Source: Heterotrichella gracilis
Lineage: Eukaryota > Sar > Xanthophyceae > Tribonematales > Xanthonemataceae
NCBI GenBank assembly: GCA_032358255.1
Contig: JAULBX010028160.1
Location: forward strand, 145,194-209,193
DNA: 64,000 nt
Reading direction: 5' to 3'
Position numbers and translations under genes: made by a program. The notes under the pieces were generated by a model. The model made no database searches. It was not told the DNA's origin and saw nothing but the letters and a program-made list of their open reading frames with translations. Below are positions 1 through 64,000 of this stretch, one piece after another (positions within the stretch are counted from its first letter, which is position 1; each line of letters opens with the position of its first letter).

Positions 1-37
1 TCTCCTGAAATCTGCTCACTATTCCTTTCATGCCCAG

Positions 38-2223
38 GGCCTGCATGATGTGGCGAGCGTGCTGCTCTTGTCGGTGGGCGAGGCCAGGGCCTATCCCCTG
101 CTCAGTCATATGGCTACATGCCACCTGCGGGACTGCACCCGCCCCGACCTGGATGCTGTGCTGCAGCTGCTGGGGCTGATCATGCCCATACTGGAGGAGG
201 TGCGGGGTGTGGTGGTGGTGGGAAAGGGAAGGGGAGTGTGTGTGTACTTTTGTGTAATGGGTAATGATGGCGGCGGCAGCGGCGACGGCGGTGTGGGTGT
301 GTGTGTGGGGGTGTTCATTCCATGTTGCATGGATGCTGTGCTGCAGCCGCTGGGGCTGATCATGCCCATACTGGAGGAGGTGAGTGGGGATGGGTGGGTG
401 GTGTGGGTGGTGGTAGTAGGTGGGTGGGTGGGTGGGTGCATACCATGTCGCATGCATGCGGTGCTATCACACGATTTGCATGCAATCCTCCAAAATTTCG
501 GAAAAAAGAGACAACAGTACAATAAAAGCCCAAGTGCAAAAATAGCAGCAAAATGAGTGCCAAAAATGAACAGCAACATGCAAAACAGAGTAAAACTTGA
601 TTTGATTGCCCCATCCCCCCGCAGTGGGACCTGGAGCTGCACGCCTGCATCGACGCCAGCAGCATCCCCCCCACTTTGCGCTGAGCTGGTACAATATTAC
701 TCCTAAAATGTCCTTATAAAAGTAAGAAAAAGCGCCAACAGTCCACCAAAAATAAACAGCAAAATGAGCACCAAAATAAATACAACATATGAGCAATTGA
801 TGAATACCTGATTGTGTTTCCTCCCCCCCTTGCAGTGCGATCCACAACTCCATGCCTGCATCGACGCCAGCGGCATCCCCCCCTACTTTGCGCTCAGCTG
901 GTACATCACCTGGTTTGCACACAACGAGGCCAGCCTGCCCTGCCTGGCGCGCCTCTTTGACTTCTTCATGGCTTCGCACCCCCTCATGCCGCTGTACGCA
1001 GCGGCGGTGGTCATGCGGGTATGGGAATCAGTGTTGCAACCACGGCTATCTGCAGCACAGTAAGATCCATTGTTTGCAATTCTGAGCTGGCAATCACAGT
1101 TAAGCTTAGTATAGCAATTGCAAGATGTGCCTGGTTTAACTTCTTCTGGCGTCGCACCCGCTCATGCCGCTGTATGCAGCTGCCGTGGTCGTGCGGGTAA
1201 GGCGTTCACCAAGGGGTGACAGTTGCAGTCTTGAGTTGCAATTTGGGGCACATGACCCTCATCCTTACCACCACCACCACCCACCGCACACCACCCACTC
1301 ACCCCACCCAACACCATCCGCAGGCCTCCCGCGAGACTGTGCTTGCTTGCGATCAGGATCCCTCAGAGATCCACCGCACCCTCAACAACCTGGCTATTCT
1401 GGCAAACATACCGGGGGGAGCGGACCAGCTGGCACTGGAGTCGGCTATGCTGTTCAGGCGGCGCCAGCCGCAGGCGCTGCTGGGCCTGCCCAGGAGTTTG
1501 AGCCCCTGGTGTGTGGTTTGGTGGACATGGGGAAATGCAGATAATGTTAGTGGGACAACACCAAATGCTGAAAAATGTTGCTTTTTGTGGGCGCCCGCCT
1601 CAGTTCAGGCATTGGCAGCCACGGACATTGAGGGGGCCATGCGAAGCACACAGACATGCAGAAAAATTAAAGTAATGTTGTACCTCCAACCCATGAAATA
1701 AATTTGGAAGGGGTTGCCCCTATGGCTAGTGGTTCCAGTAGCACATACCTCTTGCTGCCCAGCGCTGCATTATTGCATCACTACTGACACCCAGCATGTG
1801 CGCACGTGCTCAGCACCTTTCGAGCAACCATCAAGGGATGGCCATTGGCATATGCCATGACAGTGCCAGTGCTGCCAACTAGCTTGCTGGCCAGTGCTTG
1901 CTGCAATGCTGACACCCAACCCTAAACCTTGAACCTAAACGTATCACCTCTGTGTGTGCAGCACCTCTCGAGCCACCATCAAGGATGGCCACTGGCATGT
2001 GCCGGACGACGACCCGCCTTGCCCGGGGCCTAGGGACCGCGCCACACACCACCCCCTGCCGCACCACAAACAGCTGCTCTTCAGAAAGGGCAGGCAACGG
2101 CCGCTGGCGCGCATCACCGCAGTGGCTTCCCTTGTGTCGCTGGGTGCCATCACACTTGCTGCCATGATGTACAGCCAGAGCCACCGCATGGGCGCGGAGT
2201 GGCAGGTGGGGCTGTGGCCTTAG
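38..2223 (+). CDS. TBC1D20: TBC1D20-like Rab GTPase-activating protein, 3' part (5' end outside window)
   Basis: The visible exons are 38-199, 836-1018, 1324-1508 and 1962-2223; phases join cleanly and give about 263 residues up to the stop. The protein aligns by eye with the second half of the TBC (Rab-GAP) domain of TBC1D20: a segment with LSHMATCHLRDCT, then LGLIMPILEE, then FALSWYITWFAHNE, then FDFFMASHPLMPLYAAAVVM and LACDQDPSEIHRTL. The last exon carries a hydrophobic stretch (ITAVASLVSLGAITLAAMMY) near the C-terminus, matching the C-terminal membrane anchor known for TBC1D20, an ER/Golgi-associated GAP for Rab1/Rab18-type GTPases. The catalytic Arg and Gln fingers lie upstream of the window, so activity cannot be judged. 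Every visible exon has a degenerate copy nearby, and a second terminal exon at 2274-2430 is in phase with the same donor. The family call is firm; the Rab specificity is inferred. Confidence 0.88.
329..379 (+). repeat. Partial copy of TBC exon end with donor
   Basis: This is a near-identical copy of the last ~50 bases of the exon at 38-199 (encoding DAVLQ-LGLIMPILEE), followed by its own intact GTGAGT donor. It sits in the downstream intron about 180 bp from its parent. It lacks an acceptor of its own, so it is either a decoy 5' splice site or a duplication scar. Confidence 0.85.
625..690 (+). repeat. Pseudo-exon: copy of the start of TBC exon 836-1018
   Basis: This copy has a good acceptor (CCCCGCAG) and encodes ELHACIDASSIPP, like the real exon's QLHACIDASGIPP. 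One base is missing after the C-run, which shifts the frame into a TGA. It is a decayed duplicate lying upstream of its parent. Confidence 0.85.
1138..1196 (+). repeat. Partial copy of the end of TBC exon 836-1018 with donor
   Basis: The sequence encodes ASHPLMPLYAAAVVVR in frame and ends at a GTAAGG donor. It duplicates the last ~60 bases of the exon ending at 1018 and lies in the following intron. Confidence 0.83.
1811..1862 (+). repeat. Upstream copy of the start of the TBC terminal exon
   Basis: A CAG acceptor is followed by a degenerate version of the first ~50 bases of the terminal exon beginning at 1962. An extra G after the ATCAAG triplet run breaks the frame. Confidence 0.75.
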
Positions 2224-2273
2224 GGAGGGTGGGGGATGGCGCCGCACGCCACCTGCTGCTTTTCCAACGCCAG

Positions 2274-2430
2274 CAGCAGCCTCCGGGAGAGGGAGCTTCA
2301 GGACCGGTCGCTGGCGCGCATCACTGCAGTGGCTTCCCTGGTATCGCTGGGTGCAATCACGTTTTCAGCCATGATGTACAGCCAGAGCCACCGCATGGGC
2401 GCGGAGTGGCAGGTGGGACTGTGGCCCTAA
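2274..2430 (+). repeat. Second, in-frame copy of the TBC terminal exon (possible alternative last exon)
   Basis: A polypyrimidine-like stretch and CAG at 2271-2273 precede 157 bases that reproduce the membrane-anchor part of the terminal exon with only a few changes. The copy ends with the same stop context. Its phase matches the donor at 1508, so splicing onto it would give a shorter C-terminal tail (starting SSLRERELQDRS) with the anchor intact. A third, frame-broken copy follows at about 2455-2620. Confidence 0.7.
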
Positions 2431-2454
2431 CCTAGGGCCTAGGGGGAAGGGTGG

Positions 2455-2625
2455 ATGCCTGAGACGCCACCTGATGCGGTACCAACGCCAGCAGCACCCC
2501 TTGGGATGGGGAGCTTGCAAGCAGGGCAACAGCCGCTGGCGCGCATTGCTGAACAGCAAAGTGGATGCGCTGGTGTGGCTGGGTGCGATCACACTGGCAG
2601 CCAGTCGCACTGGGTAGGCCTGGCG
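2455..2625 (+). repeat. Third, decayed copy of the TBC terminal exon
   Basis: The sequence resembles the two upstream copies (cagcagcacccc, then the ctggcgcgcatt motif) but carries indels that destroy the membrane-anchor frame. Together with 1962-2223 and 2274-2430 it forms a three-step ladder that decays outward. Confidence 0.65.
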
Positions 2626-4780: not shown

Positions 4781-7700
4781 ATGGGAGACGTCAAGGACAT
4801 CTTGGGCATCCAGTCTGGTCCCCCATCGGAGAGGGAGCTGCCCAAGCAAAAGGAAAAGATGGAACGACCCAAGGGGATGAGCAGGGAAGCCTTTGCCCTC
4901 CTGGGCTCTTCCCACCCCCTCCTCCCCACCCATTTAGCTGGGGATATGAAGAAGAAGGGGGACGTGCTGGGCCTGAAGGACAAGCGAAAGCACGGGGTGG
5001 CAGGCAAGATAACCTACCAGGTGATGCCCTTTGAAAACCCAGGACGCAAGGACGGGCTGCAGCTCAAGCACTGGACCAAGTGCTTCAAAGACGCCAACGG
5101 GCGGGTGCGGGCAGCGGACGACGCGCCCTACCACTTTTCCAAGTTCAACAAAAAGGTGGGTGGTGCATGCCATATGCATGCATATACACATTGCATCTGC
5201 ATTACGTTATTTATTTATATGCATACATTTAGAGCTCTTAACCAGGTTGGCAGACACCGTTGCACATAATAGGGCACATAACGCTGTCTTGGCAGGTCTT
5301 AACGATCAGGGCAGCCCATGGTGCAATATTTCTTGTAAGGGCCGTGCATGCATATTGCGTAATTGTGCATCAAATAGAAACATGCTGACTGCTGACTGCT
5401 CTCCATTTTGGCATGCCCCAGGTATTTGTGTACCGCTATGACAGTGAGGAGTGGCAGAATGTGATAGAGCCAGACCCCATATGGACGCGGGAGGAAACCG
5501 ACTACCTGCTGGATCTGTGCGAGCTATATGACCTGAGGTTCATGATCATATCGGACAGATACGACGTACGTACCACAGCAGCGCCCAGAACCATAAACTG
5601 TGAACCGCAACCCTGAACCTTGCACTGCGAAATTCAAAACCCTAATTCCGTAGAACGCACACCCTAAACGCACGAGAGCCGTATCCGATATGGCTGCGGG
5701 AGGAGACAGACTATGTGCTGAGCCTGTGTGAGCTATATGACCTGAGATTCATGATACTATCGGAGAGATAGGCTGAAGTTACAACGTTGTACAACCAAAC
5801 ACAGTGACAGAGGCACACTGACTGGGGTTGGGTGCCTGCTACTGCCTGCAGTACGGCACCTGTGTGCCCTCAACACCATGCACAAATGCACTCCAGAGCG
5901 CGATGCTACACTGTCGCACGCCGGCTACCGGTGGCTCATGAGGGCATCCCGCTACCCTACACCTTAGCAATCTCTGATAAACCTTCAACCCTACCTTGAA
6001 AAGATTGAGTAATTAACCACCCCACCGCTTGCCTTACAGTGGCCCAATGGGCTTGCGAGATCCACTGAAGGCCTCAAGGCGCGCTACTACTCCATCGCCC
6101 ACCAGCTGCTGGTGGTTATCCTAAACCCTAACCAGCGCCTGTTAAATCCACATCCTAAGCATACTGAAAGCTATCCTCCTGACTTGCCCCATACCAAAAT
6201 CACCCAATATCTTGCCCCGCAGTGGCCCAATGGCCTTGCCCGATCCACTGAGGACCTCAAGGCGCGCTACTACTCCATTGCCCGCCAGCTGCTGATCGCA
6301 AGGGAGGGAGGGCCCGACCACGCCGGCAACCACCTGCTTGTGAAGCAGCCCTTCAACCCCGAGCACGAGAAGCAGCGCAAGCGGGCGCTGGCCATTCTGC
6401 TGTCGCGCACGCCGCAGCAGGTGCGGGAATGCAGACGCCTTTTCGTTATGTATTTTTGTAAATTCTGCTTTATTGCAATTTAGTGAAATCTACTCTTCGA
6501 AATAGAGTACGCGGCAGCAGGTGCATAGGCGGGGCCGGGTTGTCAACCTAGCAATAAAGTGGGGCTGGTGCGATGAAAGGGATTTTGCACTAGCTGCAGC
6601 ATCATTGTCAAATTTTATGTGAAACGCATTGCAAAAACATGTTGACAAGGACGCTCTGTCATGTTTTTTGGCATTGCTTTGGGCTGATCGCCCCACCCCG
6701 CTTTGCCCCTCCTCGTGCAGGAAGCGGAGGGCCAGGCTGTTCTTGAGGAGGCCAAGGAAATTGAGTTCAGGCGCAAGCTGGAGGAGCTGAAGCAGCAACA
6801 GGCAAAGGCAGCGGGGCAGAGCAAAGGTGGGGTACTTGTAGGTAGCATACTGTAGCATAGGGTAACCAACTTCTGGCATTATTGGAGTCCAGGCAAATGC
6901 GGCGAGGCAGAGGAAAAGTGGGGTGCCTTGGCGTAACCCTACCGTAACCTTCGCATGTACACAGGCAGCAGCCCACCTCCTTGCCACCAGCAGCCCCCTC
7001 CGCACCCACCATCCACCACCACCACCCACCCCTGAACCCCCTCACCACACCCGCAGGCACCTCCGCACCCACCACCACCTCCGTCGGCGGCGTGCAAGTC
7101 CCCACCGTGCGCTTCGAAATGCCTGACGGTCCCGGGGAGCTGTTTGGGGCCGACCTGTCCCCACTCCCTCCCCGCATGGGGGTGTTCAGGCGCGCCGAAG
7201 CCACAAGGGAGGAAGCAGCGAAGCAGGCGGCAAAGCTCAGCAGCCAAGGGACGAGGTGAGACTCTAAGCCTACACAGTGCTTAGTCCCAACATCCTAAAT
7301 ACGTACTGTGAACCATAGGCCTAAGTCCTGCAAGCTGGTGACCAAGCCGCGCCGCCTGGCAACGCTCTACAGAAACCCTACAGAAAACCCCAATAGAACC
7401 CCCTGCCGCAATCCCCTTGAAAGTACACTACTCCCCACCATATGTCTACTGAGCCAACGCCTGAAACTCCCCCTTGAAAACCCTTCCGCAGGGTCCAGAA
7501 GCTGCTGGACCAGACCCTCCAGGAGGTCGGCATGCCTGCGCTGCCTCGCCTGGCAACGCGGGAGGTGTGCTACGCCTACCTGGCACTGCGCGCAGACACA
7601 ATCGCCTACCTGGACCACAAAAAGAAGCTGCAGAGCCGCACCGTGGCCGAGGGGGCGGCGCTGCTGGAGGGGAGGACGAAACGCGCGCCAAAAAAGGTGG

Positions 7701-9078: not shown

Positions 9079-9150
9079 ACTCACACCACCACAAGCGGCT
9101 GCATGCTCCTCCCCAGCCACTACGGCACAAGCGCATTGCCTTCCAGCCTT
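9079..9150 (-). repeat. Decayed copy of the aminopeptidase P last exon
   Basis: The segment repeats the bases around the real stop codon (9281-9350) with scattered substitutions. It lies about 200 bp downstream of the stop on the transcribed strand. Confidence 0.8.
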
Positions 9151-9280
9151 GGTCCCAGCACCGCCAACACAACCGAGCGCAACCAGGCATATCCCCCAAC
9201 ATATTCTGTTGGCGGTGTGGGCCCTCACATGTGACGTAAATTCCATAAACACTGCGGAAAGCGCACTTTCCCATGCCCCA

Positions 9281-12200
9281 TCACGCCACCGCAAGCGGCT
9301 CTGTGCTCTTCACCAGCCACTCCAGCACGTGCGCATTGCCCTCCATTCGTGGGGCAAGCACTGCGCGCACGTCTGCGTGGTATGCGTCCACCCACGCCAC
9401 CTCGTCCTTGCTGAGCAGTGCTGTGTCAATCATCTTGGTTTGGATGGGGCACACCGTGAGGTGCTTGAAGGTCAGGAAGGACTGGCCGCCAAACCTGAAA
9501 ACGCATTTAATTTTAACTATTTTAGAACACAGAAAATTGCAGAAAAGGAGTGCCTTGGGTGAAGGTGGTGTTTAAAATAGTGGGTGGGGAAGGTGGAGAT
9601 GAGGGGTATGAAGTTTAAAAAAAAGGTAATCCTGAATAAAAGTGCACAGGAATTGAGAAAATCCCCACTCCATCTCCCCACCCACCACACCCACACACCC
9701 ACCTGAATGCGGTGTCTGCCTCCTCAATGGCCACCAGGTTCTCAATGCGGATGCCAAAGGCGCCATCCTCGTAGTACCCAGGCTCGTTGCTCACAACCAT
9801 GCCTGCGGACATTAGGGTTTGGGTTAGGGTTTAGGGTTGGAAAGCTCTATCCTCATAGTACCCGGGCTCGTTGCTCACCACCATGCCAGCGGGTGAGGGT
9901 TATGGTTAGGGTCTGGGTTAGGGTTTAGGGTTAAAAACCTCCATCCTCGTAGTACCCAGGCTCGTTGCTCACCACCATGCCTGCTGACATTAGGGTTATG
10001 GTTAGGGTCTGGGTTAGGGTATATGGTTGGTAAGCATCATCCTCGTAGTACCCAGGCTCGTTGCTCACAACCATGCCTACGGGAAAGGGTTATTGTTAGG
10101 GTTTTGGGTAAAGTTTAGGGGTTGGGCAGGGTCCACCATGCCTGCGGGAGAGGGTTCACAGAACTCACAGGGTTCACAGGGTGGGGGTTAGGGTTTGGTA
10201 GGGTTGCTCTAGGCTCCATCCTCAAAAATATCCCTGGCTCCATGCTCACAACCATTTGCCTGCGGGAAAGTGTTATTGCTGCCCTGTTGGGTAGAGTCTG
10301 GGATTGTTAGGGCTTAGGAAAACATCCCCTTGTGCACCGCTGAAACCTTGTAAAGTGCCCAATAAACCCACCTTGCGCCAGGCCTGTAGTGATGTGCCAT
10401 CTGCTGCTGATGCTCATGGGGCCCTCATGCACATTCAGCGCACCATTACCACCATGTCAAACCCCCAAAACCCTACACCCAAAACACCGCAAAAAACACT
10501 ACAAAACCGCTGAAACACACTGAACACCATTATAAAAGCGGTAAACAGCCCCACCTTGCGCCAGCCCCGTGGTGATGTGCCACCTGCTGCTGATGCTCAT
10601 GGGGCCCTCATGCACATTCAGCGCGGCGCCAACGCCGTGGCCGGTCCCGTGGCGGTAGTTGAGTCCCAGGGACCACAGGGGGGCGCGTGCAAAAGCGTCC
10701 AGCGCACAACCGGGGGTGCCCTCGGGGAACACCGCGCGGTCAAGCGCGATGTGGCCCTGCGTGGAAGGGCGAGGGAGGAAATTCAGGGCTTTGCCAGGGG
10801 TTTGGGGGTGAATTTCCAGGGTAGTTTTGGCAGCGTGGCGGTAGTTGAGCTGCTGGAGGCACAGGGGTGCACGCGCAGGTGTGGGGCCAAGGTATACATA
10901 GGGTGTGTGTTACAGACAGTGCAGGCCAGAAGTGTATGGCGCAACCTCGCAAACAGTTGTTTTCAGGGGTCGTAGGGGGATATAGGGGTTCGCGAGCATG
11001 CACCTGCAGCGCTCGCGTGAAGCAATCCTTGTTGTGCTGGGAGGGGGTCCCCAGGTGCATGGTGCATGTATCCTGACTCCCCTCCGAATGCCAGGAGGGG
11101 TCACGTCGGTGGTGCCAACCTGAAACCCTACCGAACCCACACCGCTCACCGCCTTACCTACCAAACAATACACCTAAAGCCCACCAAACCTTGCAGCAAC
11201 AAAAATCCTACAACCACCCACCTGCAGCACGCGCGTGAAGCAATCCTTGTGGTGCTAGGAGGGAGACCCCAGGTGCATGGTCCGGGTGACGTCGGTGGTG
11301 CCAACCCCAAAACCCTACCAAAACCCCACCAAAAACCTACCAAAAGACACCCAAAAGACACCCACACTTCAACCAGCTTCACAGGCGTGACCCCACCTGC
11401 AGCACGCGCGTGAAGCAGTCCTTGTGGTGCTGCGAGGGGGTCCCCAGGTGCATGGTGCGGGTCACATCAGTGGTGCCACAGGCATACTGCCCCCCGCTGT
11501 CAATGAGCAGCAGGGTGGATCCATCCACTGCCCTGCATGTGGCTGGCTCTGCGCGGTAGTGGATCACTGCGCCATTGGGGCCGGCGCCTGGGGAGAGCGG
11601 AGAAAATGATTCAATCGCAAGTTGATGGGTTCACGATTTTGGGGAGGGTTGGCTCGAGGTATGGTGGTTGCATTACAAGGGAGGGTTTCCACTAGTGAGC
11701 TCAGCAGCAAAGCTGGCTCTGTCACCTGCTCTGCATTTGGGAGTGAATCACTGCGCCACTGGGGCCAGCGCCTGGGAAAAGTATTTCTTTGTAAGGATAT
11801 GTCATTTTCCTGGGAGGCACGGGGCGGTCACGCTATTTGTATTATCTATAAAATATTTATTTTTACACACAGGTGACAGGGCCTGCCCCATACATCACGA
11901 CCTCATGGGTGACCTCCCCACACACCACCACCACCACCACCACCACCACGCACCTGCGATGGTCGGGAAGCTGCACTCTATGAACCCCTCCTGGGCAGCC
12001 CTGCGTGCCGTGAGGTGGGTATCCACATCCACCTCAGTCAGGGGGCGACCAGAGGCGATCTGCACACAGGGGGGGGGTGGGGGGCGTGAAAGAGGGTAGG
12101 GAGGTTGCGGAGAGTGTGAAGGGTGCGGTGGATGTCGGTTTGGAAATGCGCTGCCAAGTGTTGCAGCAACAGCTTCGGTATAACTGGCTGAGCCATCCTG

Positions 12201-18484: not shown

Positions 18485-18527
18485 GGCGCCAGCTGGGCAG
18501 CAGGTCGGCGGGAGATGGTGGGAGGTA

Positions 18528-20330: not shown

Positions 20331-20453
20331 CCCGGTACGTTATTCCTGCAGTTGACCAATGGGTGGCGAAGAGGAGTGCTGCCAACTGCCTCAGCGGGTG
20401 GAGATGATGTACATTTGCAGATTGCTTGGCAGCCGTTGCAGCACCCAGGGTGC

Positions 20454-50400: not shown

Positions 50401-50431
50401 ACATTCTCAGGTAAACCGCCCTATCCGACTT

Positions 50432-53400
50432 TCAAGGGAAATGGATCGACAGGTTGCGATAGGTGCGGTAGACATCTGGATCCACCGGGTGTTGTGGCAG
50501 TGGCCGCAGCTGCCCCTGCAGGTCTTGAAGCTGCTCGTACAGGAAGAGCGTCCACAGCTGATACACACTGGGCTGGCACCAGTGCGTGCACTCCCCCTTC
50601 TTGTGCACGTACCAGTAGGGCACCGACTGGTTCCAGGTGTTTAGCAGGGGGATTCCGGCCTGCACGATGAGTGTGAATAAAAAAATGAGATTGCATCGAA
50701 GCAAAGAAGCGGGGCAGTATAGGTGTTCAAGAAGGGATCCCAGCCTGCAGGATACATCAAACAGAATGGAAAAGAGTGGGTTGGCGCGCGTGTTGAAGTG
50801 CCCCCCCCCCAGCCAGAATGGTGACCCTTCCATGATTCCATTATCGATGCACACCCCGTGAGCTGACCCCTCACCAACCCACCTCTGCCTGCTGTACATG
50901 CCTTGCCCTTACACTATGTGTCATTTCCCCTACCATCATGTGAGGTTGCTAGTGGGAAGCTTCCCTTCAGATCAGCATGTTCGGACCCCCTACCTGCAGG
51001 ATGAGTGGGTTGGCGCGCGTGTTGAAGTGACCCCCCCCAAGCCAAAATGGTGACCCTTCCTTGATCTCCTTGATTGCTGCACACCCCGTGACCTGGCCCA
51101 TATAAGTGCCCCCCTTGGTGCTGAAGTGCTGCGGGGCGGTGTCCTTCCAAATGGTGGTGGGCAGCTTGGCCTTGTGCCCCAGGTGAAATTGGGTGTAGTT
51201 TGCAACATCGCCAGCGTACCTGAGGCAGCGGCATTGGGATTGGTTGGTTAGTTGGGGATTGGTGCGTTACTAGAAAGTTGGGGAGAGGGTTTTGAAATGC
51301 AGTAGGACACCCTAAACCCTAAGGCAGTGAGAAAGTTGCTGCGAATTGAAGGGTATTGACACCCATATCCCCACTATTGAGAGACTTTGCCCCAAAGCCC
51401 TAAACCCTTATACATGGGCTTACCTCTCTATTGCCTTCCCCGCATACCACAGCCCGAAGTTGACAACCATGATGTCGCTGGCAAGGTTAGGCTCGTGTTG
51501 GATGAGTGTGGGCAGCACCGAGCTCAAGAGGCCATCCACGCGGTTGATACGAATGACGCATACCCGCGCGCCTGCAGCAACACAATAAGTAAATTAAACA
51601 TGAAAATGTTTGTGAATTGTTTGTAAAAAAGAAGATGAAACATGTTAGACCAAGTGCAATAAAGCGTTGATCCGAATGACGCATACCAGCGCGCCTGCAG
51701 CACCACATGTGCATTGCTTTAAACGGAATATGTAGTTAGGTTTGGGCAATTGCAATTGCAAGCGGTCAAGCTCCTGTCCTTGAACAGGATGTGTCAATTA
51801 CAGACGAGGGCTTTGCTAAGTGAGGAGCAACGCCCTTCTGTTCATTACCATACCAACGATCCCGTGTACAACTTTTGCCAATAAGATTGCATATTGTCTC
51901 ATAGTGCATGATAGTTTACAGTATTACCTTGCAGCAGAATGGCGCAAAATGGTGCGGTGATGACCGGGTCCTGTATAGGGCTCAGCTTGGTGAGGCCGAA
52001 CTCAATTTCAGGGTCGGTGCTGACCGGTACCCTGGCGTAGGGGAAGAGCGACACCTAAAAAGAAAGGAAAAACGAAAACCATTGAAAGCACAGATTAGAC
52101 AGATGCATACATGGCTTGCGTAAAACTGCCTTCGCCCATGTCCATGGCAAAACCCCGTCCAAGGAACACTCCTGGCCATCAAACCAATATCATTTTACAA
52201 TATTTATATAGAAATCACATTCAAGGAACCAAACTCATTCTAAAAAAAAGGAATTGCAAACAGGAGAATTGTCTCAGAAATATGCAGAAAACTACATATT
52301 TCTGCCACAACTCTCCTGTTTGCAATTGACAACGACTGTCTCAAAATTCCAGTCATGCCTCCGCGATTCACCTTAACCAGGAAACACTCCAATCAGGTTC
52401 ACAAAGCAAAACATGACCCCGACACAACCTTGTCCAGGAAACACTCCTGGCCATAAAAGCATGATAATATAAAGTCCGTACAATTTTTTCTAGCAATAGT
52501 CCTCCTGCCTTGCTCACAGCGCTCCCCCGCTTACCTTGTCCAGGAAGCACTCCAGGCCATAGAACCAGTGCCACATCTGTGAGTCCCCGACCATCCACAG
52601 GGTCCGCCCTTTGAATGCATCCACCATACGCTCGGGGGTCAGCCCCATCAACCCTGGTCGGAGTCCCATGAGGGCAGCCTGGGTGAGGAAAACACAAACA
52701 GTATAAAATGGAATCAAAAATAGAACTTTTAGGAAAAAGCAATGCGAGGTGCCAAGCCCATCAACCCTGCTCGGAGGCCCATGAGGACAGCCTGGTTAAG
52801 GGAAAAAACAATTTAAGTAAACGACAGTATACATCAATATAATTTATTACATTAACAAAAGAAAACCATGCGAGGCAGCCTGATTAATGGGCAAAACAAT
52901 TCCAATAAAGTACATTATACATCTATACATTTTGTGTGTGTGTTTTTGCGTCAGGGCACAAAGCCAGGGACCAAATTTGGTCCATCACGTTCTAATTGAG
53001 AAGAATACAATGCGAGGTGACAGGCTCATCAGCCCGGGTGGAGGCATGCCAGGGTTAGCTAGTTAATCCTACCTCATTCACCACGTTCTAGATTGTTTAG
53101 GGTTTAGGGCGGCCTGGCAATGCCCTACCTGGTTGAGCACATGCTGTATCGAACGCTTGCCCCACATATCAACGCACAGCCGATTCTCAAATTGACACAC
53201 GCCACAGCATAGCGAGAAGTTTGGGCCCTGCCAGCTTGAGGCGGGGCAGTGGACGCACGCCTCCTCCCTGCATTGTGTAAGGTCATGTAAGATGATGGTT
53301 TGGGACTGCTCGCACTGTAATTCCACTATGATCATGGGACGTGCAATTACAGATGTTTGTATAAGAAACCGCTGATCACGGTATGCTGGAAAGGATGGAC

Positions 53401-55146
53401 GGGGAGGCAAAGGCAAGTGCAAGGTAGGCGAAACAGGTGGGGGGAAGCAGAGAAGCAGACGACCAGCGCAACCTCTAAAAAACTGACAACATACCTGCAA
53501 AGGCAGCAAACGTTTGTTAGCAACAGCGTGGCACCAAGTGCCCCGACTGTGCCACAAGCGAGTGCTCCTTTAAGTAAACAGCAGCCCACTCCAACAGCTC
53601 ATAGAAGAGAAGAGAAGGAATTACCATAAACGGGGGAGGGAAACACCCAAAAAGAAAAAGCAGCAGACTGGCAACACCTACAGCTGAACTTGCAAAACAC
53701 TAAGATGAAGGGACTTGGGCTCACAGAGAGCTCCCCAGATGTTTATAGTCATGTAGGATGTAGTCATATGGGAGAAGATGGGGCTCTGGAAGGTGGAGAT
53801 ACTGTGTAGGGTGTAGGGTGTCGGCACTGTAGGGTTTAATGAGGCGGGGCAGTGGGCCCAACCGTCAAGGCACGGCTCGTCATTGCACCCAGGATGGTAC
53901 ACATGTAATTGTGTGTCAAATGGATTGTTCAGATTCTGATTTCATGGGTCAGTTGACAAGATGCACATTCCACCAGACAGTGAAGGGATATTGAGGACCC
54001 TATAGGGTATTACCGTGTCGGCCAGGTGGCCACATCGAAGAAGGGGGGATAGCCGGTGGCCAGGTGAGCTTTCGTGGGTCATTTTATACCGAGGCACGAT
54101 TAGACAGAAGGGATAGAGAAAACCCTATAGGGTATTACCGTGTCGGCCAGGTGGCAACATCGAAGAGGGGGGGGGTACCCGGTGGCCAGGTGCGACATGC
54201 ATTCATACTTTTTGTATATATACCCGTTTTTTCCCCAACATACACATATTATAATTTACTCCTTTCAGTATTACCTTGTCGGCCAGGTGCCAACATCGAT
54301 GAGTGGGGGGTAGCCGGTGGCCAGGTGGAATTTCCTGGGTCATATCAGACGATGCACAACCACAAAGGGATAGTCAAAACCCTGTAGGGCATTACCTTGT
54401 TGGCCAGGTGGCGACATCGAAGAGCGGGGGGTACCTGGTGGCCAGGTGCGACGTGCTTCTCTTTCCCAAGCGCGATGCGCGCTGCACGTGCTTGTGCAGG
54501 CTCCGCAGCTCGTGGTTGGTGGTTGGGGCTGCTGGAGCATACACCTGTGGGTGGGTGGGGTGTGCGAGTGGGGTGTGTGTGTGTGGGTGGGTGGTGGTGG
54601 GTTTGTGTGGGGGGGGAAGGGATGCGTGTGGGGGTGGGTGAAGGGTGTAGGTGGAGGGTGGGGTGTTGGCAAAAGGTGAGTGCGGGCTGTGGGTGGGTGG
54701 ATCATAAGGTAAACCGCGGTCAGGTAGGCACTCAACACCACCATCAATGGGTGTGGCAGCAGAGTGCTTTCAACAGCAGCAGTGATGTTTAAAAAAACAT
54801 GGGCAGACTGCCGTTGCTACCTCCCTTGTATGCAAGTGGTGCACTGTGACCTGTGCAGCAGACTAGCCCTATAGAACAGCTAGGCTTTGCTACTCCTACC
54901 CTTCCTCACGACAAAGCCACGCCAGCAACTGGCCAGTAGCGGTTTCAACACGGTACTGCCTTGTACTTTTGACCTAGATGCCACAGTGTAGCACCAGGCC
55001 TAGTTGGCTGAGGTTAGGCAGCAAAGGGAGTTTGTGTCTGCTCGGTACCATCACTCAAGTTGCAGGGTGCCTACCTTGACAGGCACCACGTTGATCCATA
55101 CTATCGCCAAGCACAGGACCCACAGGCGACCTATGGTTCGTGCCAT
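50432..55146 (-). CDS. SGNH/PC-esterase family protein (TBL-like acyl-transferase/esterase), membrane anchored
   Basis: Eight exons, 55146-55075, 54544-54396, 53267-53129, 52678-52535, 52054-51928, 51571-51424, 51219-50994 and 50659-50432, give 410 residues with consistent phases. Residues 1-24 (MARTIGRLWVLCLAIVWINV) look like a signal anchor. A Cys-rich segment (CVHCP, CCGVCQFENRLC) follows. Then comes the block-I motif TLWMVGDSQMWHWFYG with the nucleophile Ser at 153, VVNFGLWYAG, and near the end ECTHWCQPS (E358, H361). This last motif corresponds to the DxxHWC motif of trichome-birefringence-like O-acetyltransferases, with Glu replacing Asp. These enzymes act on wall or secreted polysaccharides in the Golgi; the substrate here is unknown. 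Five or more exons have intronic copies, and a 74-base hairpin sits in the intron at 52253. Confidence 0.78.
50725..50865 (-). repeat. Copy of the end of PC-esterase exon 7
   Basis: About 140 bases resemble 50985-51100, including the CCTGCAGGAT donor side and the region encoding GSPFWLGGGHFNTRANP. The frame is broken. The copy lies in the last intron. Confidence 0.83.
51656..51712 (-). repeat. Copy of the start of PC-esterase exon 6
   Basis: It matches 51540-51585 (the ARVCVIRINR part with the CTGCAG acceptor) and lies about 120 bp upstream on the transcribed strand. Confidence 0.83.
52128..52460 (-). repeat. Three copies of the end of PC-esterase exon 4
   Basis: The exon end encoding YGLECFLDK with donor (parent 52535-52565) recurs at about 52430-52458, 52372-52395 and 52168-52190. 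Spacing is irregular and the similarity declines. Confidence 0.75.
52253..52326. ncRNA. 74-base near-perfect hairpin in an intron
   Basis: Arms of about 34 bases pair with only four or so mismatches around a 5-base loop. The arms begin ATTGCAAACAGGAGA and end TCTCCTGTTTGCAAT. The length and short loop suit either a small foldback transposon remnant or a microRNA-type precursor. Transcription is not shown, so the RNA assignment is tentative. Confidence 0.35.
52745..53062 (-). repeat. Copies of the start of PC-esterase exon 4
   Basis: The exon start and acceptor (parent 52640-52690) recur at about 52748-52800 (well preserved), 52872-52890 (remnant) and 53015-53060 (decayed). The linkers share AAAACAATT-CAATAAAGTA-like sequence, so the whole unit, intron part included, was duplicated. 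Confidence 0.78.
53835..53900 (-). repeat. Copy of the start of PC-esterase exon 3
   Basis: GAGGCGGGGCAGTGG and the following bases resemble 53238-53275 (the CVHCPAS part). The copy is about 600 bp upstream and preceded by TAGGGTTTA. Confidence 0.65.
54000..54330 (-). repeat. Three copies of the end of PC-esterase exon 2
   Basis: Units beginning with the TATTACCTTGTCGGCCAGGT-type donor/exon end recur at about 54008-54066, 54132-54192 and 54268-54328, before the real one at 54391-54450. Each encodes a version of LATGYPPLFDVATWPT. Linkers of 60-75 bp (GATAGAGAAAACCCTATAGG-like) are also repeated. The unit is about 125-135 bp. Confidence 0.9.
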
Positions 55147-57559: not shown

Positions 57560-59711
57560 TCACGTCCCTTTATTCTTTTCAGATGCTTGTTTAGCTGCTA
57601 CTGGAGACCCAGCCGCTGTTGTTTTGCCCTTTATTGCTGCAATCTTGGGTGATTTGGGTCCTGGACTTGAGTTTGCACCCTTTGATTTTCCTTTCTTCTT
57701 TCTCAATGCCAGCAGCCTCTGCTGCTCCTCTTCTTGCTGCTGCCTGGCTTCCTCCTCAGCCTACAGAACACCAATGACCAAAGTCAAAACTTCCATAGCT
57801 GGCAAACTTTTTCCCCTAGAAGTGAAATGGGTGATTGATCATGGACACTGCTTGGCCACCGTACGTCACATGGTGATCAGCAGACTGCATGCATGCACTG
57901 TATGTACCGCACATGTTTGGGCACACCATGGTGTTCAAATACACCATCATTGGTACGCCATGCATCACCAGCCTAGGTCATGTTTCCCATGATGAAGTCC
58001 CACTACGCTTGGTAATTAACTAAAATTAGAAACGGCTACAGCATGGTGATATAGCAATCAATCTATGAGTGGGTTATGCTACCTTTAGCCGCTCTTCTTC
58101 TGCAAGCCGTCGAGCAGCATCCTCCTTGGCCTCCTTCTCTGCTCTTACCTCAAGCTCGTGCAGCCTGGCTGCTTCCTCTGCTTCAGCCTGCAACCTCGCT
58201 GCGTGCTGGCGCTCAGCCTCTTCTTGCTGTGCCCTGTAAACCAACCACCCATTATTGGTTAGGAGTCCATATACAAGCATGGCGACAGTGCTGTGCCCTG
58301 TAACCAATCCAGCCATTGTTGGTTAGGAGTCACTATACAAGCATGGAGACAGTGCTGTACAGCACTGTTTCCATGGTTACAGGGCCCTGTAACTTAGCCA
58401 GCCATTATTGGTGAGGAGTCCCAATTAAATCATGGAGACTGGCGGCGCAGGTACCGCTCGGTGCCACTGCAGTCGTGACAGAAAATGCAAATTGTTGTGC
58501 AGAGCTAATTGCATTGCAAAACAAGCGTAGTAGGCGATGTTTATGGATGCAAATTCTGCCATGATAGCTGGTGTAAATCAAGGAGTTTTGAGGTATTTTA
58601 CCATTCTATCGATGCAGTCTCACTTGTGCAGTGCAGCTTCAACCTCCTCCTCTTCTATCCGTTTCCTTTCAGCAGCCGCTTGCATATACTCATTGTATAT
58701 TTCGGTGCGCGCTGCATCCCCTCCAGCCTTCACTCGGTTCAATAGCGCCACAACAGCTGGCTTTGTTGTAACCTGCTCCACTGTATTCCCATAATTGTTG
58801 CTTTTGCTCTGCAGGGCAACAAAACATAATATTTATATATCAGCAACAATGCATTGCGCCTTTTATCTGCCTTTATCTGCATGCGCAGTGCCAGTGTCTA
58901 TCTGGTTGCAAATCATTTTTCAATTTGCAGTGCAAGAGCCAAAAAACAATTCACACAATTAACTTTTAGTGCTCACCAGTGTCGCACCACCATGCAGCAA
59001 GATGGCCATTGCATCTGGATGGCCCTGGCTTGCTGCAATGTGCGCTGCCGTGTTGCCAATGGAATCTTGGGCGTCCTGAGAGCCCAACAGGGTGAGAGTG
59101 AACGCCGCACTGTGGTTGTAGCCCCTCCAAGCAATGCAACGCTACCGACCATTTTACAGTTTCAAGTGCCGCACTGTGATAGTGTATTCAATAATACATT
59201 ATCACTTTTTTACTGAGGATAACAAGGGTTCCCTTCATTTACAAGGAACGCACAATAAGAAAGCCAGCATTTTGGGATGCCAGCTCTTCATGATTAGCTT
59301 AGAAACCGCACCACATTGTGCCAGTGGCTGATTAGCAGCTCGATGGCTTCCAGAGCTCCATAGTAGGCTGCCCAGTGCAGAGGCAGGTCCTGGCCCGACC
59401 ACACCCCTTGGTCAACAGAAAATGCCCTCCTATTTCCGCTCTGAGTCAGCGTTGCCTTGACTTCCTCCCACCGCTGTTGCTTGCACAGCTGAGTCCTGCG
59501 AGGCGTAGTCACAGTGGTGGGATGCTGGAGAATTCAGTGCCAGACACAATCAGCACACAACCTATCAGTGGGTAACAGGTGGGTCCTTTGAGGTGCAGTT
59601 GAGCCAACCCAGTGTGGGGATGCAAGGGGTGCTGCTCATTCGAAGGAAAGGTCAACTCTGACTGAATAGTTCGTTTTGCTGTACTTACAGGAACTGAACG
59701 GTGTCGTCCAT
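57560..59711 (-). CDS. Ankyrin-repeat protein with charged coiled-coil C-terminus
   Basis: Six exons, 59711-59689, 59495-59312, 59075-58977, 58808-58624, 58233-58083 and 57760-57560, give 280 residues. The 23-base first exon (MDDTVQFL) is required because the next exon has no ATG. Two to three ankyrin repeats occupy residues ~40-125 (PLHWAAYYGALEAIELLISH and GNTAAHIAASQGHPDAMAIL, then NNYGNTVEQ). From ~150 to 230 a highly charged helix follows (ERKRIEEEEVEAAL, ARLQAEAEEAARLHELEVRA). A Lys-rich tail (LRKKKGKSKGA) ends the protein. Ankyrin repeats mediate protein binding; the partner is unknown. It is convergent with the coiled-coil gene, with only 167 bases between the two stops. Confidence 0.82.
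58231..58430 (-). repeat. Copies of the ankyrin gene exon 5 acceptor region
   Basis: GCCCTGTAA-CCA-CCA-CCATTATTGGTTAGGAGTC-like units start at 58231 (the real acceptor), about 58294 and about 58383. The unit is 63-89 bp. Here mainly intron sequence plus a few exon bases is duplicated. Confidence 0.78.
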
Positions 59712-60940
59712 CGCAGTGCCTTTGGTTGGCTGATAATATCAAGTTGCAAGGGATGAGCGATGGACTTTGTTCAGTAGCCAACGTCGGCAAGGCTATTGCA
59801 TAGTAACGGGCCTTTTGTTGACTCGTATGCCCCACAAAGACCACCTATAGCAAGGCGACGGTTCTAATGAATACTTAATTGGGCACAGATGAGGAGTCAA
59901 CCCCGCACAGTTGCAGCCTGTTTGCTCGGCATGCTCGAATGGCAAATATGCATGTCTCTGGAACATGACCCATGTAACGAAGACAAAACAGCGCGCGCAC
60001 CTCAGCCAACAAGATGTAAGGTGTTTAAAACTCTCACAGTGCAAGTATATGCACTGTGGAGCTTTCAACCTCGCGCACATATGCATGCCATACGGCTGGT
60101 CAAACCCTTACTTAGGGCCTCAGCAGAGCCTCTGGACTTGGGCTATGCATACAGTGTGTTGCAGCCCGGCTTCGGTGAAGTGCGGTACTGTATTCTGCAC
60201 TTTAGAGACCGGTGTTACTTCAAGCGACGGAGTCACTCTTTTGAAAAGAGCCGCTTGATCCGGAAGGCATCAAGTGGCAATGCCTACAGGCGGTTCCGCA
60301 GTTGGGGATCCTTGCGGCAGGCCCTGTTGAACTTTCAAGACCACCCATCTTGCCAGGCATGACAATGTGACAATAACCAATGGCATCATCCCCATATGAC
60401 AAGTAACCCGGGCTCTAAGAGCTGCAACAACAGTTGGCATTGGCCCGGAGGCCACTGGCACAGTGTGGTTTGCTCACCTTAGCCGCGGTATGATAATGTG
60501 ACAATAACCAATGGCAATATTTAATACAGCAATGCTTGTTTGGTGCAGGAGTAAATAGGGCATTTACGGTAAAAGTGGCGCCGCACATGCGCTGAAAGTC
60601 AGATGGTTGCCGTCGGGAATAGAGATACTTTTGAAAGCTGCTGAACACAGACTGTTGTTGCTAGTCAATACCGAGGCTGAAAAGCTTTGGTGCAGTACAC
60701 CGTATTGCACATAGAACAGCATAAGAGAGGCTTTGGAGCTGGAAGCTCATGCCATAGTCAACTAGGTGGAGGGAGTCTGGAAATTCTTGCCAGCGTCGGG
60801 GGATTAAACAAAATGAGCGCAGACCGAATTTACTCGCCAGCGCCTCAAGAGAGCAGCACACTCAAGATAGTGTTGGGCAGGGCCTCACACTCTTGCAGAC
60901 CTTCTGACTAGCTCACTCTACCTCCAGTGCCACCGCCGAG
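59712..60940. other. Intergenic region upstream of the ankyrin gene
   Basis: A 22-base direct repeat (ATGTGACAATAACCAATGGCA) occurs at about 60365 and 60495. No gene is supported; the ~150-codon open stretches lack family features. Confidence 0.4.
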
Positions 60941-61400
60941 TCAGCCCTAGAGCTGCGCCACGCTTTTTGCACCTGGAAGTATGAAGCAGGTGGGGGAGGA
61001 CACCGCTCTCACACACTGTTGGACTGCGCATCAAACGCTGCGGAAACGCAAACCAGCGCCTTCAGCACTGCTGAATAGCTCTGGACCATTGACCTGCGCA
61101 TCAGTCACTGCTGAACCACTGGATTCTCCAACCATGCCAAGGGTGTCCCTCAGTGCTGCGCCACGCTCTCCAGCAACAGGAAGTAGGAAGTAGGCAGGGG
61201 AGGACAACGCCCGCAAACGCTGCTGGACTGCACATCAACCACTGTGGATATTGACCTGCCTGTCAGTCACTATTTGAACTGATATCCAGATTGCCCCCTC
61301 CCACCCTGCCGAGGCTGCCCCTCACTGCTGCGCCACGCTCTTAAGCACCTGGATGTAGCTGGTGGGGGGGGGCAACGCCCTCAAACGCTGCTGGACCTTG
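60941..61400 (-). repeat. Three-step ladder of the EPSP synthase terminal exon
   Basis: The exon end around the stop (GCTGCGCCACGCTCTCCAGCACC, parent 61483-61515) recurs at about 61325-61365, 61150-61190 and 60950-60990. The linkers (GGAGGACAACGCC...GCTGGACTGC) are also repeated. The unit is about 165-200 bp, and decay is greatest in the farthest copy. Confidence 0.88.
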
Positions 61401-61482
61401 CATACGCTGGATCATTGCGCTGCGCATCAGTCGTTGCTGAGCCATTGGATTGCCCCACCAAACCCTGCCAAGGCTGATCCCC

Positions 61483-63843
61483 TCAGTGCTGCGCCACGCT
61501 CTCCAGCACCTGGAAGTATGTGGGGAAGGTCTTGCCGGTGCACTTGGGGTCGTTGATGGTGATGGGCACCCCCGCGCATGCAGCCAGTGAGAAGGCCATG
61601 GCCATCCGGTGGTCATCGTAGGTGTCGATCTCAGCCGATCGCACCTGCAAAGCGGAGGAATTGTATACAGGGCCTATAAAGATGGGAATGAGGAAGAGGG
61701 CGGCGAGAAGGGGAGGACATGATAAAGAAGGGGGAGGAGGGCCTCACGGAATTTGGAAGGGGGTAACCTTCATCAACTACGCCTGAGCGGGTACCTGGAT
61801 CAGTAATTGCACCCCTTACGACAATCACACATTAATCCCACCCCTACACCCCAATCGCCCCCAGGTTTCCAAACTTCGCTGGAATCGCTTTCATGCGCTC
61901 ATGTACACTACCTAAGAACAAGCAGAGTAGGCAGCAAGCACACAGGAATCGAGCAGTAATTGCATCTACATGCCCTCATGAACTATATTGACTAAACAGC
62001 CAGAGTAGGTACCAATCACACAGTAATTGCTCTGCACATGCGGCGCAGCCATGCAGTCATCGCACCTGCGCGGGTGGCTCGATCACGCAGTAATCCCGCC
62101 CCTCCACCACGATTGCCCCCAGTTTGCCCAGCTCCGCCACGATTGCCTTCATGCGCTCCGTCTCCTTCACCCGCCAGTTGTACACGTCGCGGATGGCGGT
62201 GGTGCCGTTGGCAAACAGCGCGGCCACAGCCAGGGTCATGGCGGCGTCGGGGATGTCGTTGCAGTTGTGGTCGATGGCCTGGAGCTGGCCTCGAGGGGGC
62301 CCTGCGGGGGAAATGAATACAAAAGAGTCAACATTACTGCAAGTATTTCTACGGATGCGTAAAGAACACATTGCAGTTGTGGTGAAAGGCATGGCGCTGG
62401 CAGGGAGGATCACACAATCTATACAAAAGTATCACAATGTAAAATATATGTTTACAAAAATCTACCCGTGATGGTGATCGCGTATGGCTCCCACTCCACC
62501 TTGGCCCCCATATGCATCACCATGAGAGAACTTTTATGTACTCCAATATATACGCATATTTAAATTTGATTGACTACGATTTGCTTTTCCGAGAGTAGAC
62601 ACACGGTATTTTATGATCCCCCTTTTATCCCCCAGACGACCTACCCGTGATGGTGATCGCGTATGGCTCCCACTCCACCTTGGCCCCCATCAGCCCCATG
62701 ACCTCAGCAAAGCGCACATCGCCCTGCAGGCTGTCGGACCCGCACCCCTCCACGCGTATTTTGCCCCCCGTAATGGTGGCCCCCGCCAGGAAGTAGGAGG
62801 CAGAGGATGCATCCCCCTCCACGTATGCCTGTCCCGGGGACTTGTAGGTCTGGCCGGCGGGGATGCGGATGTGCTGCAGCCCATCCACCAACTCCACCTG
62901 TGGGTGTGAGGGGGTAAATTCAATAATAGGATTAACATACATTGTTCTTGACAATTGAAATTTGTAGACCTTGCCAGCAAGGATGCCCAATAGATGCCCA
63001 TTAGGTGCCCATTACATGCCATCCGACCATCCACCACCTCTTACATCATGTGCCAATCAGAAAGGCAACATTGAGGGCACCCCCTGCTCCCGCTCCCAGT
63101 TCCACCAGCCTCCCCACACCAACCCCCATCCGCCACCCACCTCCACTCCAAAGCGCTGCATGAGCTTGACCGTCATGTCCACGTAGGGCTTGGACACAAG
63201 CTCATCGGTGATGCGGATGTTGATAGCGCCCTCGCCCACCGCCAGTGGCGCCGCCATCAGCAGGGCAGTCAGGTACTGGCTGCTCACCGAGCCGCTCAGG
63301 TTGACCTGTGGTGGGTGGATTTAGGGTTTAGGGCTTTCCACATGTATGGGCTAGGGTTTCCATATGCCGGGTACTGGCTGCTCACTGACCCGCACAGGTT
63401 GTCCTGATGGGGCCAGGGAGCGATGTTGACGCGGATGTCCTAGGCTTACTTATTATACTCAGCCTATTCCATATTGAGCAAGGCAGACTGTCCTAGGCAG
63501 TATGGCAAGTGACAAGTCACTTCCCCTTGCACCCATGGCCTTTCCTTCCCCTCACGCACCTTTCTGACTGGCAATCGATTTGTATGGTTGTAGCGCATGT
63601 AGCCAGCTACATAGGTATATTTTTACCTAGTTTACACATTTTATTTGCCTCACCGTTCCAGTTGGCAGCCCCTCAGCCACCACCCTCACTGGCGGGCAGC
63701 CTGTGCCTAGGGTACAGCTGGCATCAACCCCAAGCTGCACCAAACCATCCACCAGGTCCTGGATGGGCCGCTCCCGCATGCGCTCCACGCCATCGAGCAC
63801 AAAGGTACCCCGGCCGGCGGCAGCAACGGCGGCGGTCAGTGGC
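61483..63843 (-). CDS. aroA: EPSP synthase, C-terminal part (5' exons outside window)
   Basis: Five exons, 63843-63654, 63305-63141, 62897-62645, 62301-62066 and 61644-61483, encode about 334 residues to the stop; the N-terminus lies beyond the right edge. The enzyme joins shikimate-3-phosphate and PEP in the plastid shikimate pathway. Visible hallmarks are PLTAAV (the end of the conserved GNAGTAMRPLTAAV element, including its Pro), [73 protein letters not shown] with the catalytic Asp, WRVKETERM with the catalytic Glu and Arg, DDHRMAMA, and [12 protein letters not shown]. Nothing suggests loss of function. Being a stand-alone enzyme rather than part of a pentafunctional AROM protein fits the green lineage. 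Confidence 0.96.
62462..62520 (-). repeat. Copy of the end of EPSP synthase exon 62645-62897
   Basis: It is identical to 62641-62695 over about 50 bases, including the GGTAG donor, and then diverges. The copy is 180 bp downstream on the transcribed strand and looks recent. Confidence 0.93.
63362..63408 (-). repeat. Copy of the start of EPSP synthase exon 63141-63305
   Basis: GGTACTGGCTGCTCACTGACC and following bases match 63272-63310, with changes. The copy lies just upstream on the transcribed strand, next to TTTAGGGTTTAGGG. Confidence 0.8.
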
Positions 63844-64000
63844 CTGCAAGAGGGTGCATGGAGAGTTAGGGTCTGGGGAGGTATAGTTAGTTAGTTAGTT
63901 AGTTAGTTACATGCATTCCAGCAAAAATAGCCAGATTAGCAGTCAGTCTTGCACATGCGGCGCCACGCAGCTCTTTCCTGGCACTGTTTGAACCATCTAT
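63844..64000. other. EPSP synthase intron at the right edge
   Basis: It contains a GTTA microsatellite (about 63885-63908). No exon is seen before the window ends. Confidence 0.6.

Follow-up and report, generated by a model that had tools for sequence, protein, structure and literature searches.

What process has left nearly every gene of an alga with partial copies of its own exons beside them? The question is raised by a 64,000-nucleotide stretch of the Heterotrichella gracilis genome (contig JAULBX010028160.1, positions 145,194–209,193, forward strand), hereafter the window, which is the single source of all the evidence considered here. The window has a guanine-plus-cytosine (GC) content of about 0.54 and carries 15 intron-rich genes, the exon ends of which recur as short same-strand copies in adjacent introns and 3′ flanks. 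The answer that we favour, and to which we would give roughly an even chance, is recurrent head-to-tail duplication of about 200 bp by break repair, denser in genes, with one of the two units held in place as the exon.

Same-strand copies at exon edges

Comparison of the window against itself with blastn yielded 73 pairs, including 69 same-strand pairs less than 1 kb apart, three self-palindromes and one distant inverted pair; the same search returned no same-strand pairs beyond 1 kb and, except for the three self-palindromes, no near inverted copies. A more sensitive self-comparison, read at scores of at least 45, recovered 81 pairs on the same strand less than 1 kb apart and none at 1–5 kb or beyond 5 kb, a distribution that shows no dispersed similar introns (introners) in the window. 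When 100-bp sliding segments (n = 1276) were compared with their own flanks, with telomere-like and simple repeats masked, 227 reached the threshold score of 50, and none of the 1276 did so against inverted or unrelated flanks. As to the palindromes, a near-perfect one, self-complementary over 76 bp (84%), is located at 52252–52327, and two weaker ones are found at 8715–8780 and 58339–58378.

The 78 pairs scoring at least 46 were grouped into 47 clusters (Table 1), 15 of which are ladders containing more than one pair. Exons were predicted with a purpose-written ab initio gene finder trained on the window, giving a curated set of 68 exons (12,364 bp; mean length 182 bp); exons added or lengthened by eye resulted in an extended set of 90 merged exons, which was used to classify the clusters. 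With the extended set and an overlap of at least 10 bp, 44 of the 47 clusters touch an exon and three do not. This fraction depends in part on the exons called by eye, because under the stricter 68-exon set, 54 of the 78 pairs include an exon; the weakest assignments are the clusters at 53939–54456 (10 exon bp) and 58225–58439 (12 exon bp). The copies are found on the donor side (18 clusters), on the acceptor side (17) and at gene 3′ ends (9). None lies at a gene 5′ end, an asymmetry between gene ends (9 versus 0) that is unlikely to be accidental (p = 0.004); upstream copies may be selected against, as they would add start codons.

A complete exon is copied in none of the 47 clusters, as the sequence-only reading of this DNA had stated for internal exons, which rules out tandem whole-exon duplication. 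The end of the copied block lies within 20 bp of the exon edge or beyond it in 42 of the 44 exon clusters, compared to 74% of random exon-overlapping blocks of equal lengths (p = 0.0004), and the edge itself is reached or crossed in 38; the earlier statement that the block always spans an exon edge thus holds for these 38 clusters but not always. Clusters are present in 13 of the 15 genes, and a 14th gene (34760–36326) carries an array of 30-bp copies of its stop-codon region, in agreement with the previous count of at least 14; no copies were detected in the gene at 56083–57400. The spread over 13 of 15 unrelated genes, the balance of donor and acceptor sides and the same-strand arrangement of near non-palindromic pairs bear out the view of a general local process rather than one specific to particular genes.

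Step and anatomy of the duplicated unit

The smallest offset in a cluster is 165–240 bp in 29 of the 47 clusters and 61–149 bp in 16, with the remaining two at 258 and 413 bp. One of the 29 offsets (177 bp) spans an N gap and is followed in its cluster by an offset of 197 bp, and the minisatellite, entered at 102 bp in the cluster list, has a true unit of 51 bp. Intron length does not set the scale of the step, because placements touching one exon edge are plentiful for longer units (25,403 at 200 bp, 24,069 at 300 bp and 19,011 at 400 bp), and because eight of the nine gene-3′-end clusters, which are free of an intron limit, have steps of 172–236 bp. A length of 165–240 bp corresponds approximately to one nucleosome or one Okazaki fragment.

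Past the aligned block, homology extends with a mean score of 9.7 on the intron side; the corresponding scores are 5.6 in unrelated introns and 4.7 towards the exon interior. Among 41 pairs, the intron-side extension has p < 0.2 in 23, p < 0.05 in eight and p > 0.5 in six, and a match to the predicted flank at p < 0.02 was obtained for 17 of 46 spacers. With sharp breaks on the exon-interior side and faint homology towards the intron, a typical copy would stem from the head-to-tail duplication of an exon end together with intron, the intron half having since decayed. The aggregate intron-side homology speaks against the insertion of exon-end blocks without intron as a general rule.

Coding constraint in exons and copies

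Constraint was assessed in 39 independent exon–copy pairs; the gap pair 48807/48984 was excluded from divergence counts but kept in its cluster. Mismatches at codon positions 1, 2 and 3 number 64/839, 66/844 and 167/845 (7.6, 7.8 and 19.8%), respectively. This pattern is not caused by base composition, as noncoding rates predict 0.147, 0.158 and 0.141 for the three positions. Over 813 codons, synonymous divergence (dS) is 0.312 and nonsynonymous divergence (dN) is 0.080, for a dN/dS of 0.256 (bootstrap 0.20–0.33). Indel lengths are not multiples of three in 15 of 19 cases. In ladders, differences of the exon from mutually agreeing copies fall at positions 1, 2 and 3 in 0, 3 and 14 cases. The codon-position pattern, the indels and the ladders all support the earlier inference that selection pins one of the units. 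By contrast, the description of the copies as mostly frame-broken was not upheld: frame-breaking indels lie inside the aligned block in 12 of the 39 pairs and premature in-frame stops (four, where a neutral copy would give 5–10) in three, with the frame of most blocks intact.

This coding-type conservation, together with the fact that blocks usually extend to the splice site, could be taken to indicate that the copies are themselves functional, for instance, as decoy or alternative splice ends under selection. In view of the frame-breaking indels and stops, and of the nine clusters out of 47 that lie past a stop codon, we consider such a role highly improbable. In-frame alternative ends, in particular, are unlikely, since the offset list shows no visible preference for multiples of three as judged by eye.

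Synonymous divergence is nearly even over the 39 pairs (dispersion 1.39, p = 0.054); nonsynonymous divergence is slightly uneven (p = 0.036) and shows no correlation with the synonymous measure (rho 0.13, p = 0.44). In a two-phase model (omega 0.02–0.2), silent divergence amounts to 0.16–0.27 before the copy was freed (limits 0.10–0.36) and to 0.02–0.08 afterwards, suggesting either a coding period in the history of the copies or the derivation of the block from a diverged functional homologue.

Is the exon focus a matter of ascertainment?

The sequence-only reading had proposed that short tandem duplication is uniform along the DNA and that, with one copy pinned by selection, exons only appear to be foci, since noncoding pairs decay past recognition. 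The intron halves, duplicated but decayed, and the 17 of 46 spacers that match the flank are in line with this proposal. We simulated uniform duplications with one copy pinned under varied divergence and indel rates, normalizing the outcome to 44 exon clusters; a second set of simulations covered older ages and higher indel rates, the first having used too low a neutral rate. At a unit of 200 bp, the window offers 31,269 exon-free placements versus 25,403 that touch one edge. The number of exon-free clusters predicted per 44 is 37–53 at the first-estimated age and 14–50 with older ages and more indels, compared to the three observed. Alignment into noncoding sequence is short (median 12 bp, with 69% at 20 bp or less), and most settings predict longer alignments. 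Only the oldest and most indel-rich setting (2u = 0.4, indel ratio 0.6) reproduces the fraction at or below 20 bp (0.68 vs 0.69), which speaks for uniform duplication; however, even this best-fitting setting predicts 14 exon-free clusters, and the others predict 21–53.

A further point in favour of uniform duplication is an excess of 8-mer matches over all intergenic DNA, where 82 overlapping matches at lags 110–259 compare to 45 expected, and 52 independent direct matches at lags 110–264 compare to 35 reverse-complement and 28 mirror matches. This excess, however, is gone at distances above 250 bp from exons, where intergenic DNA has 33 independent matches at lags 110–264 against a background of about 32. 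When duplications of dS-like age were implanted in the far intergenic DNA, five resulted in 41–48 matches and 20 in 67–85; the test is weak at a divergence of 0.45 and powerless at 0.6, and the null result therefore holds for a neutral clock close to dS. In addition, dN/dS is too low for uniform duplication, and telomere-like tracts, too, are exon-proximal (see below). Taken together, uniform duplication with pinning is not supported as a full account of the copies, either by the number of exon-free clusters or by the conservation of the copies, and we regard it as unlikely. Tandem duplications of equal density away from exons, which had been named as a finding that would refute the sequence-only reading, are not present in the window, and the reading is in this respect not refuted. 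Enrichment at exon edges in excess of ascertainment is thus likely, although not proven.

Telomere-like tracts

TTTAGGG is the telomere motif of the plant and algal type. It occurs 33 times in the window and its complement, CCCTAAA, 18 times, compared to 2–5 occurrences for seven permuted motifs. Such telomere-type repeats thus exceed chance at non-terminal sites, with 23 tracts of at least two units. Fourteen of the tracts are located in introns within 100 bp of an exon edge (14.8 kb), five elsewhere in introns (13.2 kb) and none in exons, whereas intergenic DNA contains three near exons (7.2 kb) and one far from them (13.3 kb); the comparison of edge-proximal intron with far intergenic DNA (14 vs 1) is significant (p = 0.001). 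Because this measure is independent of exon conservation, the exon-proximity of the tracts is free of the ascertainment bias that may affect the copies. In two single cases, listed last in Table 1, a tract lies between an exon end and its copy. A stranded RNA element in the TTTAGGG tracts is unlikely, both orientations being present (orientation relative to the gene was read by eye).

Assembly

The 100-N gap at 48884–48983 is bordered by identical 77-bp flanks, and a third identical 77-mer is found at 49181; the gap could be an assembly or scaffold artefact or, alternatively, an unresolved array. Apart from the 51-bp minisatellite, the window contains no exact repeats longer than 77 bp, a value that looks like an assembler word length. 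With such a limit, young duplications that are still identical over 77 bp or more may be missing, and censoring may partly account for the even ages of the pairs. Fragments of a second haplotype or strain could even have been joined chimerically beside the first, a scenario with which the identical gap flanks, the 77-bp limit outside the minisatellite and the low dN/dS are all compatible. It is nevertheless quite improbable, given the frame-breaking indels in 12 and the stops in three of 39 pairs, the ladders in 15 of 47 clusters, the common step near 200 bp, the lack of copies at gene 5′ ends and the presence of no more than two runs of N in the portions inspected. Ten Ns follow a G run at 30033–30042, and the sequence nearby is unreliable.

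Origin of the copies

Under the favoured reading, a local duplication would first take in a stretch running from within an exon into the neighbouring intron or 3′ flank. Selection would go on acting on the unit that is attached to the remainder of the exon, whereas the other unit, being spliced out or situated past the stop codon, would decay. Such units might arise when a staggered break is repaired by filling in both protruding ends and joining them, in the manner of the CST–Pol alpha-primase and end-joining pathway, with telomeric repeats occasionally added at the break. Two nicks or replication ends one nucleosome or Okazaki unit apart would be a natural source of the stagger. Relative to intergenic DNA, either the process itself or the survival of its products would be concentrated within genes in the vicinity of exons. 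In favour of this reading are the restriction of pairs to near, same-strand positions, the contact of most clusters with exon edges, the narrow step, the residual extension on the intron side, the codon-position pattern with its frame-breaking indels, and the telomere-like tracts beside exons.

Several observations weigh against this reading. The dN/dS of 0.256 is below the value of ~0.5 or more expected when one unit is constrained and the other neutral. Changes specific to the copies in ladders (29, 21 and 44 at codon positions 1, 2 and 3; 569 sites) also lean to the third position (p = 0.010). All 12 pairs with identity of at least 89% align into noncoding sequence over no more than 19 bp, given which some intron-less exon-end insertions are possible. 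Furthermore, four pairs (150, 13352, 48207 and 62641) have no synonymous changes over about 53 sites and yet have poorly alignable intron halves, so that a single neutral clock is insufficient. The link between telomere-like tracts and duplication junctions is weak, with 11 of the 23 tracts falling in clusters (6.6 under the null, p = 0.037), tracts within 25 bp of the junction in six of 39 cases (null 2.8, p = 0.053) and a further junction test at p = 0.070. Just 15 of 42 spacers appear telomere-derived at z > 2 (control windows: 15% of 150 in introns, 7% of 150 in intergenic DNA and 8% of 150 in exons), which rules out telomeric filler as the source of all spacers. Finally, the unit is mostly 165–240 bp (29 of 47 clusters), as opposed to mostly less than 100 bp for human small tandem duplications of the fill-in class (Schimmel et al. 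2021; PMC8355091). Owing to this difference in unit size, we propose fill-in end joining as the mode of origin only, not as membership of that class.

Some of these difficulties would be removed together if the second unit were copied during repair from a diverged homologous chromosome of a hybrid or highly heterozygous alga, exon and copy having differed as functional alleles before the decay of the copy. Homologue templating would jointly account for the low dN/dS, the unalignable introns and the missing exon-free clusters, and it fits the two phases of silent divergence as well as the even synonymous divergence that does not track the nonsynonymous one. On the other hand, it requires very high heterozygosity, of which the window gives no direct sign; the four pairs without synonymous change and the multi-unit ladders, which need several events, are not readily accommodated, and even dS may also reflect assembly censoring of young identical copies. 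We hold this explanation to be distinctly unlikely. An extended version of the break-repair reading is very doubtful: transcribed exon edges would be hot spots of staggered breaks one nucleosome apart, processed by telomerase and CST–Pol alpha into ~200-bp tandem duplications, with TTTAGGG as occasional filler and copies partly templated by the diverged homologue. If true, the genome would retain a fossil record both of hybridity in the past and of breaks at splice-site borders.

Coordinates and gene content

Table 1. Clusters of local copies in the window, with two further copies that carry intervening tracts
Feature	Position	Strand	Remark
Donor-side copy, offset 180	150..382	+	
Acceptor-side copy, offset 210	537..905	+	
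Donor-side copy, offset 179	956..1202	+	
Acceptor-side copy, offset 148	1811..2003	+	
Gene 3′-end ladder in gene model 1, offsets 207 and 432	2093..2603	+	
Donor-side copy, offset 209	5466..5770	+	SWC4/DMAP1-like gene
Acceptor-side copy, offset 183	6015..6294	+	
Gene 3′-end copy, offset 200	9081..9364	-	M24 aminopeptidase-like gene
Acceptor-side ladder, unit about 84-96 bp	9757..10306	-	telomere-like repeats between copies
Donor-side copy, offset 183	10367..10624	-	
Donor-side ladder, offsets 218 and 393	11001..11478	-	
Acceptor-side copy, offset 184	11555..11776	-	
Donor-side ladder, offsets 168, 350 and 519	12833..13419	-	
Acceptor-side copy, offset 185	14239..14499	-	
Donor-side ladder, offsets 61 and 133	15584..15778	-	telomere-like repeats between copies
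Acceptor-side copy, offset 149	17977..18278	+	S15-like gene
Gene 3′-end copy, offset 172	18357..18662	+	includes stop codon
Gene 3′-end ladder, offsets 194-552	19805..20521	-	
Donor-side copy, offset 198	20887..21150	-	by-eye exon
Gene 3′-end exon copy, offset 413	22646..23107	-	block 96 bp inside exon
Gene 3′-end copy, offset 176	26434..26718	+	
Acceptor-side ladder, offsets 115 and 212	30559..30832	+	
Donor-side copy, offset 224	30835..31150	+	
Gene 3′-end exon copy, offset 236	31777..32053	+	block 28 bp inside exon
Intronic minisatellite, 51-bp unit, 5 near-identical copies with CCCTACACCC	35837..36099	-	exon-free cluster
Donor-side copy, offset 168	39131..39433	-	
Acceptor-side copy, offset 204	39514..39800	-	
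Acceptor-side copy, offset 139	40171..40378	-	
Donor-side ladder, offsets 119, 218 and 337	41480..41914	-	telomere-like repeats within unit
Intron-intron pair, offset 119	45839..46015	+	exon-free cluster
Acceptor-side copy, offset 214	45891..46162	+	
Donor-side ladder, offsets 203 and 373	46619..47113	+	
Acceptor-side copy, offset 217	47250..47538	+	
Acceptor-side copy, offset 203	48004..48287	+	
Donor-side ladder, six pairs	48763..49628	+	N gap runs through
Gene 3′-end copy, offset 189	50242..50579	-	
Donor-side copy, offset 229	50774..51099	-	
Acceptor-side copy, offset 123	51543..51707	-	
Donor-side copy, offset 106	52427..52567	-	
Acceptor-side ladder, offsets 89 and 113	52644..52933	-	exon edge lengthened by eye
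Ladder, offsets 130, 261 and 391	53939..54456	-	10 bp of by-eye exon
64-bp ladder	58225..58439	-	12-bp contact with by-eye exon edge
Intergenic 30-bp pair, offset 131	60356..60516	.	exon-free cluster
Gene 3′-end ladder, offsets 172-371	60930..61518	-	EPSP synthase gene
Donor-side copy, offset 258	61824..62158	-	
Donor-side copy, offset 179	62462..62701	-	
Acceptor-side copy, offset 98	63272..63406	-	telomere-like tract in spacer
Short exon-end copy, TTTAGGGTTTAGGG between exon and copy	about 17634..17720	+	by eye, outside the 47 clusters
30-bp copies of stop-codon region, CCCTAAACCCTAAA between	34705..34770	-	outside the 47 clusters

Ten of the 15 gene models were submitted to a Pfam search, and nine scored above the curated cut-off, matching the families TBC, SWC4/DMAP1 SANT, M24 aminopeptidase, S15, cyclophilin, DUF2358, PfkB, MFS and EPSP synthase; the PC-esterase match of the tenth was under the cut-off. 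In the M24 peptidase gene, a long C run within an exon (14158–14314) apparently breaks the frame and might represent either a sequencing error or a real change. An Rfam scan of the window at gathering scores gave no matches, and a search for transfer RNAs found none. A single 118-amino acid query, used to look for relatives of the locus, produced 18 pattern matches in viral_contigs and 67 in genome_contigs, none of which was confirmed. For comparison, Coccomyxa C-169 is reported to have a GC content of 53%, a mean exon length of 182 bp and a mean intron length of 240 bp (PMC3446292). By these figures and the TTTAGGG motif, the window has a green-alga-like look.

Significance and comparison with known systems

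In the literature surveyed by titles and abstract openings, there is no description of local exon-edge duplications in an alga. If the whole genome had the density seen in the window, local duplication would account for much of the growth of this alga's introns and 3′ flanks, a process that would supply ready-made splice sites and confuse gene prediction. It would also amount to a natural experiment in which one twin is selected and the other is not, such that mutation, break position and constraint could all be read from the pairs. A fixed step near 200 bp, extending to gene 3′ ends, would link this mutation class to the nucleosome or Okazaki scale, a question usually approached through engineered nicks only.

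Small tandem duplications are said to have been attributed to staggered-break fill-in followed by end joining by Schiml et al. in 2016. In the fill-in pathway as presented in the human study, CST-guided Pol alpha-primase, a complex that also fills in telomere ends, fills 3′ protrusions at staggered breaks, and subsequent end joining yields small tandem duplications (PMC8355091). In rice, insertions of 10–1000 bp that are tandem or partly tandem were found to originate from within 200 bp of the break (Vaughn and Bennetzen 2014, as cited in PMC7407515). The 69 same-strand near pairs of the window resemble fill-in products in being local, head-to-tail and independent of sequence, whereas a density of 47 clusters in 64 kb and the focus on exon edges lie outside what the consulted portions of this literature describe.

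In vertebrates, introns have been reported to contain proximal copies of 50–619 bp, among them portions of exons and splice sites, with donor–acceptor distances that peak, with a caveat, near 1.2 kb; partial exon/intron donors account for four of 824 cases, and at least one copy is oppositely oriented (Pace et al. 2009; PMC2671141). The copies described here are similarly short and derive from a proximal donor, but their step is about 200 bp, none was found to be inverted, and exon contact is seen in 44 of 47 clusters. A few interstitial telomeric repeats come with a direct duplication of the target, which was explained by staggered breaks (3 loci, 4.5%; PMC7215372). The window likewise contains telomeric repeats, in both orientations, inside a chromosome; here, however, duplication is the rule and the tract the exception, and the tracts are exon-proximal. 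The duplications also recall intron gain by tandem duplication, in which duplication across an exon/intron structure turns former exon into intron sequence; unlike in that process, present introns are lengthened, and no new intron was identified. Overall, the fill-in pathway and the telomeric insertions fit the anatomy of the copies, including the rare telomeric filler, but they supply neither the step size nor the focus on exons nor the constraint that persists in the copies.

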